From Verrucomicrobiota bacterium (GTDB lineage: Bacteria > Verrucomicrobiota > Verrucomicrobiia > Limisphaerales > SXTU01): DNA of 39,164 nucleotides. Shown here piece by piece: positions 3,990 through 18,456 of this stretch. A program made the translations under genes and the position numbers. The DNA lies in contig JACRKB010000092.1 of the NCBI GenBank assembly GCA_016235545.1, positions 1 to 39,164 on the forward strand. The letters run 5' to 3'. Within the stretch, counting starts at the first letter, position 1; the number at the start of each line of letters is the position of its first letter. The notes beneath the pieces are model-generated. The model saw only the letters and a program-made list of their open reading frames with translations, was not told where the DNA came from and ran no database searches.

Positions 3990-4892
3990 GTGCGCGTCGC
4001 TGGACTCTTGCTCTGCTACCTCGCCGGGGTCTTTGCGAGCGGCGCGCTGCTGGCCCCGGGTCTCTTCCACCTCGCGCAATGGGCTGCCGGCGAATTTCCG
4101 ACCCTCCAAAACCTCGCCAGCCAGCCCTTCCACCGCTACGTCAACCGCTCTCTCCTCGTCGTCGCGCTGGCCGGGCTGTGGCCGTTGCTCCGCGCGCTGG
4201 ACCTCGCCGGCCTTCGTGCGCTGGGCCTCGTCAGCCCGCTGGCCGCACGCCGTCCGCTCGCGCTCGGGCTGGTGCTGGGCTTCGGCTCGCTGCTGCTGGC
4301 CGCCGTGCTGATGGCGCTGGCGGGCGTGCGGAGCTTCGGCTTCAGCCACTCGGTGCCCGTGCTGCTGCAACTGCTCGCCAGCGCCACGCTCTCCGCCGCC
4401 GTCGTGGCGCTGTTGGAGGAAATCCTCTTTCGCGGAGTGGTCTTCGGAGCCCTTCGGCGCGCGTGGCCGCGCTGGCCGGCGCTGCTGGCAAGCGCGGTTC
4501 TCTATTCGGCGGTCCATTTCCTCGCGCGCGTCGAGCATACCGGGCTGGTCGAGTGGGACTCCGGCCTGGCGCTGCTTCCACGCATGGCGCGCGGAATCGC
4601 CGCACCCGAGGCACTGTTTCCCCATGCGCTCACCCTGATTCTTGGCGGTGTCGCGCTCGGGCTGGCGTGTCTGCGCACGGGCAATCTTTGGTTCGCCATC
4701 GGGCTGCACGCGGGCTGGGTGTTTTGGCTGAAGGTTTTCAAAACTGTGACCGCGCCCGGGGCGGGCGAAGGTGGTGCGTTTTGGGGGACGGACAAGCTGC
4801 TGGATGGCTGGCTCGCCTGCGTCGTCATGGTCGGCGTCGTCGCCGTGGTTGCGCGGCTGCCACAAACGCAGCCACCGGAAGAAGCTACTTAG
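3990..4892 (+). CDS. CPBP family intramembrane glutamic endopeptidase
   Basis: Integral membrane protein with several hydrophobic helices and the hallmark CPBP/Abi (Rce1-like) motifs: EExxxR in ALLEEILFRG, then a helix with SAVHF, and a final GLHAGW motif. These supply the catalytic Glu and His residues of the family. The frame is open back to GTG 3843, giving 349 residues, but the first 47 residues of that form are Cys/Pro/His-rich and unlike a membrane protein start, and would leave only 24 bp to the divergent kinase gene. I therefore prefer GTG 3990 (300 residues, starting just before the first helix); TTG 3975 is another option. The function in bacteria varies, from prenyl-protein-like processing to bacteriocin self-immunity, and the substrate is unknown. 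Confidence 0.82.
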   Translation: MRVAGLLLCYLAGVFASGALLAPGLFHLAQWAAGEFPTLQNLASQPFHRYVNRSLLVVALAGLWPLLRALDLAGLRALGLVSPLAARRPLALGLVLGFGSLLLAAVLMALAGVRSFGFSHSVPVLLQLLASATLSAAVVALLEEILFRGVVFGALRRAWPRWPALLASAVLYSAVHFLARVEHTGLVEWDSGLALLPRMARGIAAPEALFPHALTLILGGVALGLACLRTGNLWFAIGLHAGWVFWLKVFKTVTAPGAGEGGAFWGTDKLLDGWLACVVMVGVVAVVARLPQTQPPEEAT

Positions 4893-4982
4893 CCACTGAT
4901 GGAACACGGATTGAACTCGGATAAGGCAAGGGCTTCAGCCCAGTTTTTTCATCCGTGTTGATTCCGTGTTTCATCCGTGGCT
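4891..4982. repeat. Inverted repeat, family R1 (short copy)
   Basis: The gap between the CPBP and comF genes has the ends agccactgatggaacacgga (4891-4910) and tccgtgtttcatccgtggct (4963-4982), which are inverted complements with few mismatches. A second internal atccgtgttgattccgtg element precedes the right end. The same end sequences bound the longer copies at 20532-20722 and 36772-36950, but the interior here differs and is shorter. It probably belongs to the same element family or is a deletion derivative. Confidence 0.65.
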
Positions 4983-5006
4983 CCCAATCAGTTCCTCCGT
5001 GCCGAG

Positions 5007-5741
5007 ATGAAATCTGTCAACCGTGACTGGCTTGACGCCGGCCTGAGCTTTCTTTTTCCGGCGGTCTGCCAGCTTTGTGCCGACGCGCGGGCGACGCCCG
5101 CTGAGGGCTACGTCTGCCAGGCCTGCTGGCAAAACCTGCGCTTCGTCACGCCGCCCTGCTGCGAACGCTGCGGCCTCCCGTATGCAGGCGAAATCACCAC
5201 GGCTTTCGAGTGCGCGAACTGCCGCGACCTCGACCTCCACTTCCGATGGGCGCGCGCGTCCGTGGTGGCAAACGACTTCCTGCGTGGCGTCATCCACCGC
5301 TACAAATACAACCGCGAACTCTGGTTTGAGCCATTCCTCACCGACCTGCTTTTGCGCCAGGCCGTCCCGGTCCTGCGTTCGGAAAATTGCACGGGCATCG
5401 TTCCCGTCCCGTTGCACCCCGTGAAACAGCGCGAACGCGAGTTCAACCAGGCCGAACGGCTCGCCCTCCCGCTCGCCCGCGCGCTCGGCATCCCGGTGCT
5501 CACGCACCTCGTCAAGCGCGTCCAGCCCACCCGCACTCAAACCCAGCTCGACAAGCACGCGCGCGCCGACAACGTCCGGCGCGCCTTTGCCCCAGTGCAG
5601 CCCAAGTCCCTCCGCGGCGAGCGCCTCATCGTCCTCGACGATGTTCTCACCACCGGCGCGACCACCAGCGCCGTCGCCCGCGTTCTGCGCGAGAACGGCG
5701 CGGGCGAAGTCCTCGTCTGGACGCTGGCGCGCGGGCTTTGA
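5007..5741 (+). CDS. comF: ComF family phosphoribosyltransferase-fold protein
   Basis: 244 residues from ATG 5007. A GTG 30 bp upstream (4977) is in frame but lies inside the inverted repeat, so ATG 5007 is preferred. The N-terminal part carries the ComF double zinc-finger cysteines (CxLC, CxAC, CCxxCG and CANC), the middle has the conserved Lys-Tyr (HRYKYN), and the C-terminal part has the PRPP-binding motif LIVLDDVLTTGATT. ComF/GntX proteins are needed for DNA uptake in competent bacteria, acting on the cytoplasmic side with the ComFA helicase and DprA; in other bacteria the role is less clear. No other competence gene is nearby. Confidence 0.9.
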   Translation: MKSVNRDWLDAGLSFLFPAVCQLCADARATPAEGYVCQACWQNLRFVTPPCCERCGLPYAGEITTAFECANCRDLDLHFRWARASVVANDFLRGVIHRYKYNRELWFEPFLTDLLLRQAVPVLRSENCTGIVPVPLHPVKQREREFNQAERLALPLARALGIPVLTHLVKRVQPTRTQTQLDKHARADNVRRAFAPVQPKSLRGERLIVLDDVLTTGATTSAVARVLRENGAGEVLVWTLARGL

Positions 5742-5934
5742 ACCGGAGCGATGGAGCAGGCAAACGGTTCGAAAGGGCCTCACAACCAGTCCGAAGTGTG
5801 CGCTCGGCACAGACGGTTTTTGACACCTTCGCCGGGAAGTCCTAGCGTTTCATCCATTGACCGCCCTTGCTTTTGTTGAGCCGTTGAACGCGTCACAGGC
5901 CCCTGCCGCCTGACCCACACCCAGCTACCATCCA

Positions 5935-13461: not shown

Positions 13462-14151
13462 TCAATTCCTGGGCTTGAGCAGGACAAGTTCACCGCGGCG
13501 GTTCTTGGCCCACGCGGCCTCGGTGTGGCCGAGCTCGGCGGGCTTGTCCTCGCCAAGAGTCGTCGTGCGGAGACGGTCGGGGGAAATGCCGGCCTTCGCG
13601 AGCTGCGCACGGATGGCGAGCGCACGGCGCTCGCCCAAGGCGCGGTTGTATTCCTCCGTGCCGCGCTCGTCGCAATGACCCTCGATGAGCAGTTTGTTTT
13701 GCCGCGAAGCCTTCAACGCAGCGATGACAGGTTGCAGCTTGCCCAGCTCGCTGGCCTTCACGATGGCCTTGTCGTAGTCGAAATGAATCGTGTTCGCCGC
13801 GAAGGCGCTGCGGTCCATCGGCATGCCATCAAACTCGCCCTGATCAGCGGCAGGGATGCCACCCTGCTGCGTCAAACCCGGAATGCCACCGGGTGTGAGT
13901 CCGCTGGGAATGGCCGTCCCTACAGCGGGGTTGGATGACGGACCACTGGTGCCACCCGGAGTGATGCCATCGAGCGGACCCTTTGGGGTAGGGAGCTTGG
14001 TGAGGGCGTCTCCGCGCGAGTCGTCTGCAACGCTTGTCCGTGCCCCGTAAATGGGCGTGACGTTCTTCGGGTTCTTGGTCCGGCAGCCGGTGACGGCGAC
14101 GACGGCGAGCAGGGCGACGGTGGCAAGCTTTAGGAAAATGGTGCGTTTCAT
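13462..14151 (-). CDS. pal: Peptidoglycan-associated lipoprotein Pal
   Basis: 229 residues from ATG 14151; the frame is open further upstream but MKRTIFLKLATVALLAVVAV followed by TGC (Cys23) is a clear lipoprotein signal and lipobox. A Gly/Pro/Thr-rich linker leads to an OmpA-like domain with FDYDKAIV and GHCDERGTEEYN. The Asp and Arg that bind diaminopimelate in Pal are kept; the usual Thr of GHTDERG is Cys. It anchors the outer membrane to peptidoglycan as the last part of Tol-Pal. It follows tolB by 26 bp. No cpoB/ybgF gene follows; tatA comes next after 129 bp. Confidence 0.93.
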   Translation of the reverse strand: MKRTIFLKLATVALLAVVAVTGCRTKNPKNVTPIYGARTSVADDSRGDALTKLPTPKGPLDGITPGGTSGPSSNPAVGTAIPSGLTPGGIPGLTQQGGIPAADQGEFDGMPMDRSAFAANTIHFDYDKAIVKASELGKLQPVIAALKASRQNKLLIEGHCDERGTEEYNRALGERRALAIRAQLAKAGISPDRLRTTTLGEDKPAELGHTEAAWAKNRRGELVLLKPRN

Positions 14152-14177: not shown

Positions 14178-15386
14178 TCAGCGTGCCCACGTGGGCTGGG
14201 AGCAATTTCCCAAATTCAGGGGCACATCCTTGACGCGCTTGGTGGGCACGTCAAGCAGAGACAAGGAAAGCGGGCCGCCTCGACCGCGCTTGCAGAACAT
14301 CAGCGTGCGCGAGTTTGGCGCCCACGTCGCGTCCTGGCCCGTGCCGAGCGACTGCGCGTCGCCACCGGCGGCTGGCACTGTGCAAATCTCAAAGCCCCCG
14401 CCGCGCTGCGTGGTGACCGCAATCCACTTCCCGTCGGGCGACCAGTCCGGCTCGGTGGCGTTGAAGACGCCGGTGGTGCGGATGCGCTGTGCTGCGCCGC
14501 CGTTTGCCCCGATGCGGTAGAGCTGGGCCGGGCCGTCGTCACTCGACACATAGCAAATTGTCTGGCCGTCCGGCGACCAGCATGGCGAGGCGACACCCTC
14601 GCGCGAGCGCGTGAGCTGTTGCAAGCCGCGACCGTGGATGTCCGCGACGTAGAGGTCAGGCTTGCCGCCCTTGCTCAGGATCATCGCCACGAGGCGTCCG
14701 CCGGGCGCGACGGACGGCGACAAGTTCGAGCCGCCGTAGCGCGCGACGACATGCCGCTCACCGGTGTCGAGGTTGTGTGAGAAGACGTCGGCGTTGTTCA
14801 GCTTGTAGGAAGTGTAGGCGAGCCATTTGCTGCCCGGCCCCCATGAGGGTGCGGCGATGATGGCGTGGTCGGCGGTGATCGGCGCGGCAGCGTGGCCGTC
14901 ATAGTCGGCCACGTAGATTTCGCCGGGGTTGTTGGCGGCTTTGACCTTAAAGGCGACTTGCGTCCTCGCGATGCCACGCGTCTGGGTGAGCGCGAAGATC
15001 ACATCGTCCGCGAAGGCGTGGGCGAGCTGGCGCTGGCTCGCGCCGGTGTAGGCCTTGGAGAGGAGGTAGTTCTTCGCGCGGTCGGAGACGAAGCCTTCGA
15101 GGCGCGCGCCGTTGGTGCCATGCACGAGGACCGCAGCCTGCTCGGCACTGACGACGGCGCATCCGGCGACTTCGAGATCGAATCGCAGCGTGGTGGCGAC
15201 TTCGCCGGTGAAGCCGCTGAGGGAGATGGGGATGGGCGCTGACGGGTCCGCCTTGCCATAGACTTTGAATGCCGGCTCCTGCGCGCGAGAGATGAGCGGC
15301 GCGGCTGCGGCGAAGAAGAGGCCGGCCAGCGCGGCGCGGCGCGGCATCGGGTTCGTGGAGGAAAGCTGAGATCGGTTTGGGTTCAT
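14178..15386 (-). CDS. tolB: TolB-like periplasmic beta-propeller protein
   Basis: 402 residues. After a signal region (PRRAALAGLFFAAAAPLISRA) comes a TolB N-terminal domain (about 40-160), then a beta-propeller with repeated WSPDG-type motifs (CWSPDGQTICYVS, DWSPDGKWIAVT, TWAPNSRTLMF). TolB interacts with Pal and with the TolA/R/Q motor during envelope constriction at division. The ATG overlaps the tolA stop (ATGA), indicating translational coupling. The N-terminus carries a PRR pair before the hydrophobic stretch, so export by Tat rather than Sec is possible but not certain. Confidence 0.92.
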   Translation of the reverse strand: MNPNRSQLSSTNPMPRRAALAGLFFAAAAPLISRAQEPAFKVYGKADPSAPIPISLSGFTGEVATTLRFDLEVAGCAVVSAEQAAVLVHGTNGARLEGFVSDRAKNYLLSKAYTGASQRQLAHAFADDVIFALTQTRGIARTQVAFKVKAANNPGEIYVADYDGHAAAPITADHAIIAAPSWGPGSKWLAYTSYKLNNADVFSHNLDTGERHVVARYGGSNLSPSVAPGGRLVAMILSKGGKPDLYVADIHGRGLQQLTRSREGVASPCWSPDGQTICYVSSDDGPAQLYRIGANGGAAQRIRTTGVFNATEPDWSPDGKWIAVTTQRGGGFEICTVPAAGGDAQSLGTGQDATWAPNSRTLMFCKRGRGGPLSLSLLDVPTKRVKDVPLNLGNCSQPTWAR

Positions 15387-16408
15387 CCGGTGGTGCGTTT
15401 GGCTTTGAGGTTGAAGTCTATGTTGAAGGTTCGTTGTGATTCGCGGAAACTTGCCGGGAACGGCTCGAACTGAATCACCTTTTGAAGCGTCTCGCGCACT
15501 GATCTGTCAATCGCGCTGTTGCCGCAGGGCTTGAGCAACTGCCACTCCAGCACGCGCCCGCTGCGCGCGACGGTCACGGTGACGCCCACGATGGAGAGCG
15601 CCTCGCTGAGGTTGGGCGGGACCAGCCACATCTGCTCGTAGGTGCGGACCATCATCTGGCCGTAGTCCAGGAAGGCTGCGGCGTTGGGACCGCCGCCGGC
15701 GTCGATGTGGATGTCCACCGGCGAGGAAAGTCCGCCCTGGATGCCGCCGAGGATGGATTTCATTTTCGCCACGCGCTGGAGGTGGGCTTGCTGGGCGGCC
15801 TTGGCGGCGGCGGCGGACTGGGCGCGCTCCTCGGCCTCAGCTTTTTGCCTCAACCTCGCGTCCTCGTCGGCTTTGCGGGAGACGAGAGCTTTCGTGTCGG
15901 CAATCTTGATGGTGGACTTGCTGGGCGAGGCCTTCGCGGGTGGCGGCTCCGGCTCCTTCGCCTTCTTGGTTTCCTTTTTGACGGGGGTTTCCTTGCCTTT
16001 CGGGGTGACGTGCGATGGGCGCGGCTCGACTTTCGTGATCTTGGGCGGCGGCTCCTTCGCGACCTCTTTTTTCTTCACCGGCTCGACGGCCTTGGCCTTT
16101 GGCGCGGGAGCTGGCGGAGCTGGCTCCACCGGGCGCGGCGGCTCGACGGTTTTCGGAACAGGAACTGGCTCCGTGATTGCTGGCGCGGCGGGCGCGGGTG
16201 TGGGCGAGGCAACTGGTGCGGGAGCGGGCGGCGCTTCGGCGGCCCGCAAGAGGGCGTCCAGCTCGCGGGCGCTGACGAGGTTGATGACGGGCGCGTTCGC
16301 GCGCGGCTTCTCCGGCAGGAAGGCGGGCGCGACGACGAGGATTGCGAAGAGCAGCGCATGCATCGCCGCCGAGGCGAGAAAGCATTTTGTCTGGAGCCGC
16401 TGGTTCAC
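15383..16408 (-). CDS. tolA: TolA/TonB-like energy-transducing protein
   Basis: 341 residues from a GTG start at 16408. It has one N-terminal membrane helix (CFLASAAMHALLFAILVVAP), a long Pro/Ala/Lys-rich periplasmic stretch (about 55-175, with VEPPRPVEPAPPAP and KKEVAKEPPPK), a charged helical part (ADEDARLRQKAEAEERAQSA), and a globular TonB-like C-terminal domain (VTVARSGRVLEWQLLKPCG). It would couple the TolQ/TolR motor to TolB and Pal across the periplasm. The C-terminal domain resembles TonB_C, so the protein can also be called an energy transducer TonB; position between tolR and tolB favours the TolA role. It is separated from tolR by a 542-bp gap holding a large inverted repeat. Confidence 0.87.
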   Translation of the reverse strand: MNQRLQTKCFLASAAMHALLFAILVVAPAFLPEKPRANAPVINLVSARELDALLRAAEAPPAPAPVASPTPAPAAPAITEPVPVPKTVEPPRPVEPAPPAPAPKAKAVEPVKKKEVAKEPPPKITKVEPRPSHVTPKGKETPVKKETKKAKEPEPPPAKASPSKSTIKIADTKALVSRKADEDARLRQKAEAEERAQSAAAAKAAQQAHLQRVAKMKSILGGIQGGLSSPVDIHIDAGGGPNAAAFLDYGQMMVRTYEQMWLVPPNLSEALSIVGVTVTVARSGRVLEWQLLKPCGNSAIDRSVRETLQKVIQFEPFPASFRESQRTFNIDFNLKAKRTTG

Positions 16409-16950
16409 TCGGTGAATGGATTGGGATTGGCGGGAGCTAATTCACGCGCGGACGTGGATTCGACGGGAAGCGATGTGTCGTGCTCCGGCATCGTCGCGAA
16501 TTCTTCGCCAAGGCGGGCTCGCATTGGCACCGGGCTTCACAGGTTGTGTGAAAACTTCACCACCGCACTGGAGTCGCTGTTTGCAGCAACGGAGTTGCGC
16601 CAGAGAGTAGCCCACGGCGCGAGCCGTGGGTGCCGCAGGCGACCGTCGCAAGCCCCGGAGGGGCGGCAGAAAACTCGGCCTGACGTCCAGAACTCGCGCC
16701 CTCTCTACCGCCGCTCTGCGGCTCGCCTCCTTCGCCCGAGTGACCCACGGCTCACGCCGTGGGCTACTCTCTGTCGCAACTCTCTTGCTTCGCCGAAGTC
16801 GGCCAAGTGCCGTGGAGTTTTCACACAGTCCGTTCAGCCGGGTGCCGATGAGAGGTTGCCCCCCCCGCTCGCCGGGCAAGGCCATCCAGCCATTTTCGCA
16901 AATGATAAATTTTTCTCCGGCTGATCGCTGACCGCTGATCGCTGAAAGCT
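16409..16950. repeat. Long inverted repeat (R4) interrupting the tol cluster
   Basis: This 542-bp gap has no convincing gene. Positions 16522-16631 and 16743-16850 form inverted arms of about 108 bp that match at most positions. Shared words include ggcacc, tgtgtgaaaact, gagttgcg and a block of about 28 bp, agagagtagcccacggcg (with g[c/t]gagccgtgggt). The block is itself a hairpin. The roughly 110-bp centre contains gccccggaggggcggcag and further small palindromes. No transposase or target duplication is seen. At 16918-16946 a direct repeat ctgatcgctga/ccgctgatcgctga lies just after tolR. Read-through RNA could fold into a long double strand. Confidence 0.8.
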
Positions 16951-17373
16951 TCATTGCTTCAACTCCGTGCTGAAGCTCACCTGTGTCATGCCGCGCCGGG
17001 TGCAGCGGTCGAGCAGTTGCATCGCGTGGTCGAGCTTGCCGTCCTTGTCGCCGCGCACGCGGATGATGAGGTTCGGGTTCGCGCGGAAGTCGGCGACGAG
17101 CTGCGCCTCGATCTGATCGAGCGTCAGCGGACGTTTCTGGAGGCGGAAGTTCCCGGCGCGGTCGATCTCCACGGTGCGGATGTCCTCGGCCTTGGGCGGG
17201 CGGGCCTGCTCTGGCCGCGCGCTCTGGCCGGGCAGGTTCATGTCCAGCGAGCCTTCGAGCATCGGCGTGGTGATGATGAAGATGACGAGCAGCACGAACG
17301 CGAGGTCGAGCAGCGGCGTGATGTTGATCTCGCTCAACGTCACGAGGGAGTTGCGTTGGGAGAAGCGTCTCAT
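16951..17373 (-). CDS. tolR: TolR/ExbD-type motor protein
   Basis: 140 residues from ATG 17373. The frame extends upstream but that part belongs to the overlapping zinc-ribbon gene in another frame; the ATG overlaps its stop as ATGA. It has the ExbD/TolR signature LSEINITPLLDLAFVLLVIF with the proton-path Asp23 in the membrane helix, then a periplasmic domain (VEIDRAGNFRLQK; IRVRGDKDGKLDHAMQLLD). It works with TolQ as the proton-driven motor for TolA. The gene is third in the tolQ-zinc ribbon-tolR run. Confidence 0.93.
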   Translation of the reverse strand: MRRFSQRNSLVTLSEINITPLLDLAFVLLVIFIITTPMLEGSLDMNLPGQSARPEQARPPKAEDIRTVEIDRAGNFRLQKRPLTLDQIEAQLVADFRANPNLIIRVRGDKDGKLDHAMQLLDRCTRRGMTQVSFSTELKQ

Positions 17374-17747
17374 TGGATGCCTAAAATCCGGGCGCCGCCG
17401 AGCAGAAGCCAGAGAACCAGCCCGCCGACCAGCAGGAGGGCAGCCGGCCTGTTCCATCGCTGGAAACGTCGCCTCAACCAGCCGCGTCGCCAGCGCGGGC
17501 GTTTGAAATCAAGTTTGAACACGCTGAAATCCCTGCCGACGTTGCGGAGGGGTTGGTGGCACTTAATGCAACGGCTGGTGGTGCGCAGGTTTGATTTGTG
17601 GCACTTCCGACATTTGAGGCGCAGGTGCGCCCCGCAGGCGGAGCAGATGTCGGACGTGCGGTCGTTGAACGCGCCACACTTCACGCAGTGGACAGGCATG
17701 TCCCTCTGTGCCCGGGGCGGCATCGAGATGTTCTGCTCGTCACTCAT
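17370..17747 (-). CDS. Double zinc-ribbon protein with C-terminal membrane anchor, between tolQ and tolR
   Basis: 125 residues from ATG 17747. Four CxxC pairs (Cys21/24, 35/38, 46/49, 60/63) make two zinc ribbons: CVKCGAF-CSACGAH and CRKCHKS-CIKCHQP. A basic linker (KRPRWRRGWLRRRFQRWNR, 82-100) precedes one membrane helix (about 101-118, PAALLLVGGLVLWLLL). By the positive-inside rule the ribbons should be cytoplasmic. The gene overlaps the end of tolQ by 8 bp and the start of tolR by 4 bp, so all three are surely co-translated. I know of no named Tol component of this type. It could modulate the TolQR motor, help assembly, or sense the cytosol; function is unknown. Confidence 0.85.
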   Translation of the reverse strand: MSDEQNISMPPRAQRDMPVHCVKCGAFNDRTSDICSACGAHLRLKCRKCHKSNLRTTSRCIKCHQPLRNVGRDFSVFKLDFKRPRWRRGWLRRRFQRWNRPAALLLVGGLVLWLLLGGARILGIQ

Positions 17748-18456
17748 CCTTGAGGAATTCTGTCTCCAGCTTCGACGCCAGCTCCTGGGCGAAGTTGTCC
17801 AGCTCGACCGTCTGGACGCGCAGATGATGCACGAGCCAGTTGTAGCCAAACATCGAGGGGATGGCCACGAGGAGCCCGGCGACCGTGGTGATGAGCGCCG
17901 CAGCCACGCCGGGGGCCATCGCCGCGAGGTCCGCGCGGCCCGCCTGCGCCACCCCGGCGAAGGTGTCCATCACGCCCCACACCGTGCCCAGCAGGCCCAG
18001 GAACGGCGCGCCGCTCACCGCCAGCGCGAGCAGGATGATGCCGGACTCGAGGGCGAGCGCCTCACGCGCGACCGCGCTCTCCAGCGTGCGCTTGATATGC
18101 TCCATGGATTTGAGGGAGACGTGCTTCTTGCGCGAGCCATCGGGCTGTTTCAGCCGCGCCTCGGTCTCCACGCAGCCCTCCTGATACACGGTGAAGAGCG
18201 GGCAGCCCTCGACCTGCACGCGCCGGTCGTGGATGTCCAGCACGGTCCTCTGCGCGCGGAACTCTGCCATGAAGAGATCGTTGAGCCGGCGGGCGCGGCG
18301 CATCTGCAGGCTCTTGGAAACCATGACGGACCAAGCGAACATGGAGAAGATCACCAGGAAGATGATGATGACCTTCGCCTCGATGGTGGCCTTCTCCCAG
18401 ATGTAGGTGATCTGGGAATTCGTCCCCGCAGCGAGGATGTAGAGCGGCAAGTTCAT
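17740..18456 (-). CDS. tolQ: TolQ/ExbB/MotA-type proton channel protein
   Basis: 238 residues. One membrane helix near the N-terminus (EAKVIIIFLVIFSMFAWSVMV), a cytoplasmic region with charged helices, and the paired helices of the MotA/TolQ/ExbB family at the C-terminal half (IILLALAVSGAPFLGLLGTVWGV and GVAAALITTVAGLLVAIPSMFGYNW) with the conserved LLGTVxGxxxxF and ALxTTxxGLxVAIP patterns. It forms the stator channel with TolR. First gene of the cluster; the 266-bp gap upstream contains an inverted repeat and the terminator of the neighbouring rhodanese gene. No Shine-Dalgarno motif precedes the ATG. Confidence 0.93.
   Translation of the reverse strand: MNLPLYILAAGTNSQITYIWEKATIEAKVIIIFLVIFSMFAWSVMVSKSLQMRRARRLNDLFMAEFRAQRTVLDIHDRRVQVEGCPLFTVYQEGCVETEARLKQPDGSRKKHVSLKSMEHIKRTLESAVAREALALESGIILLALAVSGAPFLGLLGTVWGVMDTFAGVAQAGRADLAAMAPGVAAALITTVAGLLVAIPSMFGYNWLVHHLRVQTVELDNFAQELASKLETEFLKDE

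Follow-up and report, generated by a model that had tools for sequence, protein, structure and literature searches.

The Tol-Pal system consists of TolQ, TolR, TolA, TolB and Pal, of which TolQ and TolR form a proton-driven motor pair of the cell envelope. A study from 2025 on Tol and Ton operons lists the Escherichia coli operon as YbgC, TolQRA, Pal, TolB and CpoB; it also mentions Verrucomicrobia, and the term zinc is absent from its main text (PMC12204202). A 2026 review calls the activation of the Tol and Ton motors poorly understood in its discussion of them (PMC12905483). The window analysed here, the whole stretch of 39,164 nucleotides at positions 1 to 39,164 of contig JACRKB010000092.1 (assembly GCA_016235545.1), comes from a Verrucomicrobiota bacterium of the order Limisphaerales and holds a Tol operon with an additional gene between tolQ and tolR, encoding a 125-residue zinc-ribbon protein. 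We infer, tentatively, that this protein is an accessory of the TolQ-TolR motor, lineage-specific and non-essential, and that it binds at the cytoplasmic side. Text searches of the open-licence literature found no description of a zinc-ribbon protein with TolQ or TolR.

Anatomy of the zinc-ribbon protein

The gene and the parts of its product are laid out as follows.

17370..17747, minus strand: zinc-ribbon gene, 125 residues, without an established name; ATG at 17747, TGA at 17372-17370; PF12773
17559..17687, minus strand: two zinc ribbons, residues 21-63, with four CxxC pairs; PF12773 and AlphaFold2
17385..17492, minus strand: long helix, residues 86-121, made of a basic part and then a membrane span, with 4 residues behind it; hydropathy and AlphaFold2 model

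The four CxxC pairs are C21/C24, C35/C38, C46/C49 and C60/C63, and all eight cysteines are invariant across a 26-sequence alignment of the family. The protein passes the curated cutoff of PF12773, the double zinc ribbon, with 29.0 bits against 27.3. Its linker of 40 residues carries a net charge of +11, and a hydrophobic stretch of 19 residues near the C-terminus reaches a mean Kyte-Doolittle hydropathy of 2.21. An AlphaFold2 model built on an alignment of 19 family members gives a mean predicted local distance difference test score (pLDDT) of 94-96 in blocks of residues 21-60, a low-confidence joint at residues 73-80 and a single long helix at 86-121; overall, the mean pLDDT is 78.6 and the predicted template modelling score 0.48. 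Zinc binding by the ribbons is predicted from the cysteine pattern. The basic linker, read by the positive-inside rule, suggests a tail-anchored protein of the inner membrane whose ribbons would face the cytoplasm.

The gene overlaps tolQ by 8 base pairs (bp) and tolR by 4 bp (ATGA). A preliminary description of the locus had given both overlaps exactly, without a strand; the gene lies on the minus strand. A search with the 125-residue protein found no second copy in its own genome, where the next match has an E value of 0.25. The open reading frame is confirmed as a real gene, a chance frame being ruled out by homologues in the same slot across the order and by the ratio of nonsynonymous to synonymous substitution rates (dN/dS). 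Across six pairs drawn from four congeneric genomes this ratio is 0.16-0.38 for the zinc-ribbon gene, 0-0.07 for tolQ and 0.05-0.17 for tolR. The protein is thus under purifying selection, yet drifts faster than TolQ or TolR.

A patchy gene of one order

The survey of the order was anchored on TolQ, not on the zinc-ribbon protein, to avoid searching only where the latter occurs. It covered 146 genomes, of which 137 have TolQ at an E value of 1e-80, and loci were read in 133 of them. The loci of G029, G142, G367 and G373 fall outside these 133; in G142 and G367 the coordinates place a family member next to tolQ. For each locus the DNA behind tolQ was taken and the next tolR sought, and 132 loci were scored, that of G072 ending too early. 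A zinc-ribbon homologue adjoins tolQ in 40 of the 132 scored genomes, the window's own included, and these 40 are spread over 14 of the 47 families of the order. Behind the zinc-ribbon gene, tolR is also seen in 37 of the 40; the other three positives (G073, G385 and G101) come from loci that show no tolR. These linked copies commonly overlap, or nearly overlap, tolQ and tolR, with starts called by a simple open reading frame rule. The gene is kept next to the motor genes well beyond the genus, which supports the preliminary description in tying it to the motor operon; the tie is looser than proposed there, since the gene is dispensable and patchy and, in the one phylum searched, confined to a single order.

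A search with the single protein matches 61 of the 146 genomes at an E value of 0.01, again counting its own, many of them weakly. Absence from close relatives had been named beforehand as a reason to abandon the proposal: nine of ten congeneric genomes match, and the gene is missing from one, G002, where tolQ and tolR overlap by ATGA. In a second, overlapping set, made up of 80 named loci in order of TolQ similarity, 29 have the gene and two loci end at tolQ. One of those 29 copies (L104, about 4890-5750) is a triple-ribbon copy between tolQ and tolR that is interrupted by a stop and misses some cysteines; it is either a pseudogene or an assembly error. Eight records titled Akkermansia muciniphila (L062, L067, L091, L093, L100, L120, L126 and L131) and one titled Proteobacteria (L063) hold a TolQ close to that of the order, and the titles of these nine are probably wrong.

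The searches covered one phylum, Verrucomicrobiota. The preliminary description had suggested surveying tolQ-tolR neighbourhoods across it, and the slot copies found within the order have no counterpart in the loci read beyond it: all 29 from other orders or classes, which are the best TolQ matches and not a random draw, have tolR within 153 bases behind tolQ and no zinc-ribbon gene. A profile of 26 family members found no strong relatives among the matches listed in 212 other genomes of the phylum, at least six of which hold weak partial matches (best E value 2.5e-10). Because the 29 outside loci lack the gene and the 212 genomes gave no strong match, the gene is confined to this order so far, as far as one phylum can tell, and a subunit common to Verrucomicrobiota is ruled out.

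The layout was compared in 39 linked proteins, leaving out that of G101, which is cut. A membrane-type hydrophobic stretch (threshold 1.6) follows the ribbons in 35 of them, the part after this stretch is 0-18 residues long in 35, and the linker is net positive in 37. Sequence, PF12773, hydropathy and the model thus bear out the four CxxC pairs, basic linker and single C-terminal helix proposed at the outset. Two genomes of the window's genus, G004 and G005, carry a tandem pair of zinc-ribbon copies. Five of the eight genomes of one family (f7) carry repeats of the ribbons themselves: three encode three double ribbons (12 CxxC, 247-306 residues as called) and two encode eight (32 CxxC, 592-595 residues).

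L065 6728-8503 and L066 6728-8512: proteins encoded between tolQ and tolR, each with eight double ribbons and a single membrane stretch

PF12773 scores 125 bits on the 595-residue protein, with six stretches passing alone, and 54 bits on the 247-residue protein, with two passing. All the multi-ribbon proteins of this family share one C-terminal order of basic linker, helix and short tail. The ribbon module has multiplied while the anchor stayed, which fits a scaffold of variable valency. A bolder reading would make the protein an undescribed, zinc-dependent cytoplasmic regulatory subunit of a Tol-type motor, in which the number of modules (one, three or eight) sets the count of cytoplasmic partners; we consider it unlikely.

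Evidence on a possible role at the motor

The accessory-protein reading is preferred because the anatomy suggests a tail anchor, because the gene travels with tolQ and tolR under selection, and because its patchy spread points to an optional component. The overlaps with both motor genes indicate that the protein is probably made together with them. Its C-terminal helix would be anchored in the inner membrane, most likely at the edge of the TolQ ring. At the cytoplasmic face of TolQ the ribbons, stabilised by zinc, would act as a protein-binding module, which may aid assembly of the motor or tune its activity.

Several observations weigh against this reading. The gene is absent from the slot in 92 of the 132 scored genomes, including the congener. 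The slot accepts other genes, as in L190, where the open reading frame is a 23S_rRNA_IVP (PF05635). Four of the 39 linked proteins fall below the helix threshold, two just under it (1.58 and 1.51) and two, from G006 and G109, clearly without the stretch. At least 20 strong copies stand at other loci, in 12 genomes, and 14 unlinked rows tested against 30 linked rows do not form one clade (approximately unbiased (AU) test, p 0.0002). Finally, 631 column-residue tests showed no TolQ or TolR column that tracks the presence of the gene, although with only seven supported independent pairs this test has no power.

With tolQ and tolR present in each of the 92, the motor is able to dispense with the zinc-ribbon protein, which is not required wherever the motor is present. 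In 90 of them tolQ and tolR are at most 170 bases apart, and in 17 of the 90 they overlap by 4 bases; the remaining two (2 of 133 loci) carry an open reading frame of another kind between the two genes. Frames of another kind were seen in L184 and L190 (G020 and G365) and also in L115 and L125; L190 is the one assigned to a family, and the others look alike by eye. In the 25 no-gene loci with gaps above 60 bases, inspection by eye found no remnant resembling the ribbon gene; in seven of the 25 one reading frame contains a single CxxC. Presence of the gene, mapped on a FastTree tree of TolQ and TolR (162 rows), requires at least 17 changes, as against 35.8 for shuffled labels, and seven changes are forced by supported branches; the count does not tell gain from loss. 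One early gain followed by many losses is the simpler reading, since slot and protein are homologous and several early-branching families carry the gene. Losses appear to have been numerous, one of them a clean loss within the window's genus, in G002. This patchiness, the other gene type at the junction and the fast change of the protein are what would be expected of a neutral or mobile passenger tolerated between tolQ and tolR. Purifying selection, the invariant cysteines and the keeping of one slot across 14 families speak against a passenger, which is improbable.

The accessory-protein reading must also account for family members elsewhere. Profile searches scored up to 31 candidates per genome in the order and 21 outside it, so that the family counts are lower bounds. 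The family profile matches at least 49 of the 146 genomes at an E value of 1e-8, and a strong match (E value 3e-17 or better) occurs in at least 47. The preliminary description had conceded that membership of a common unrelated zinc-ribbon family found beside many other genes would undo it. The unlinked copies go some way in that direction; yet 42 of the 47 genomes with a strong match have a slot copy by coordinates, and the bias of the family to the tolQ-tolR slot remains strong. When 20 unlinked loci were fetched, a simple gene picker showed the ribbon frame in 14 and another frame in six. No recurrent neighbour of the unlinked copies was seen by eye in the gene-picker lists, on which no family search was made. 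One copy classed as unlinked (G046:C12:103356) is actually about 3 kb upstream of tolQ, and at least one unlinked copy, from G046, has as its sister group the operon copies found in the same family. The tree of linked and unlinked copies has 118 columns, long branches and mostly weak forks, and it leaves out six of the 20 unlinked copies, the linked multi-ribbon proteins, and those of G101 (cut), G006, G061, G109 and G366. On this tree a separate unlinked subfamily was rejected, the 14 copies not forming one clade. In one non-operon member (L310, 3446-4624) the chain does not stop after the helix but has a further C-terminal region, which is presumably periplasmic.

The unlinked copies speak for a general membrane-tethered zinc-ribbon protein of the order, such as an adaptor for a cytoplasmic partner or a tether that binds RNA or ribosomes, which would make no contact with the motor and share its operon for dosage or translational coupling. 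The strongly basic linker suits such a tether, as do the profile matches to the zinc ribbons of human-type DZANK1 (the best, E value 1.6e-6), of archaeal DNA polymerase D and of ribosomal L40e. Fold searches gave generic zinc-ribbon matches only, with weak ones to RanBP/NZF-type fingers and ribosomal S27e/L40e. This main rival appears rather unlikely.

Cysteines raise a further alternative, in which the protein is a zinc or redox sensor and oxidation or metal loss at the ribbons alters its shape and signals to the motor or another partner. The eight invariant cysteines agree with this, and so does C85 of TolQ (tolQ, window 17740-18456), which all 132 scored sequences of the order share and none of the 29 outside sequences has. 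The 92 genomes that lack the zinc-ribbon gene, however, keep C85 just as invariably, and ribbons made only of CxxC pairs are usually structural sites; a sensor is improbable. Another TolQ cysteine, C96, occurs in 35 of 40 genomes that have the gene and in 54 of 92 that lack it (Fisher p 0.001), an excess that does not fall on independent branches.

A gene that sits between the motor genes in this order and is missing from many close relatives offers a natural comparison of motors with and without an accessory protein, even within one genus. If the protein contacts TolQ, it would provide an entry point to the cytoplasmic control of Tol- and Ton-type motors; were it a regulatory subunit, the TolQ-TolR machine would have a dedicated cytoplasmic control element.

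The host operon and known systems

The genes around the zinc-ribbon gene are these.

17740..18456, minus strand: tolQ (MotA/TolQ/ExbB family); PF01618, E value 8e-31; best NCBIfam match TIGR02796
16951..17373, minus strand: tolR (ExbD/TolR family); PF02472, E value 4e-22; best NCBIfam match TIGR02801
16409..16950, no strand: spacer of 542 bp from tolR to the tolA-like gene, containing a large inverted repeat
15383..16408, minus strand: tolA-like gene (TonB_2 C-terminal domain); PF13103, E value 8e-8
14178..15386, minus strand: tolB-like gene (PD40 beta-propeller repeats); PF07676, E value 4e-22
13462..14148, minus strand: pal-like gene (OmpA domain); PF00691, E value 2e-17

Read along the minus strand, the operon runs tolQ, zinc-ribbon gene, tolR, spacer, tolA-like, tolB-like and pal-like, with tatC further down. 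It is identified as a Tol-Pal operon by its MotA/TolQ/ExbB and ExbD/TolR pair, behind which lie tolA-, tolB- and pal-like genes. The NCBIfam equivalog cutoffs are missed, with 152.8 of 221 bits for TolQ (TIGR02796) and 73.5 of 127.3 bits for TolR (TIGR02801), so the names tolQ and tolR rest on the operon as well as on the best match. The spacer repeat has arms at 16585-16670 and 16704-16789, each of 86 nucleotides and 80% complementary, and is nested inside a second inverted pair at 16518-16854. Among the PADLOC models, the zinc-ribbon gene and TolR have no match at an E value of 0.01, and TolQ scores 13.1 bits to ZorA3 (E value 0.0058), which does not make this a Zorya-like motor. With no PADLOC match for the zinc-ribbon gene, a part in such a defence system was rejected.

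The zinc-ribbon protein and its operon can be compared with several described systems. PF12773 proteins have a tandem pair of zinc ribbons, as here; that name is a domain label without a function, and the linker, helix and operon position lie beyond it. Membrane-anchored proteins such as TcaA of staphylococci have a cytoplasmic N-terminal zinc ribbon, one membrane helix and large extracellular domains, and the likeness stops at the short tail of the zinc-ribbon protein. FliL and YcgR are accessory regulators of MotAB stators with folds that differ from it; they tune a related proton motor, the role proposed here, and serve as an analogy only. Tol-Pal itself shares with the window operon both the motor pair and the tolA-, tolB- and pal-like genes that follow it on one strand. 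The E. coli system, as listed in the study introduced above, has no zinc-ribbon protein, whereas the window operon has one. As the literature searched holds no such protein, the locus is taken as a variant of the Tol operon with an order-specific extra gene.
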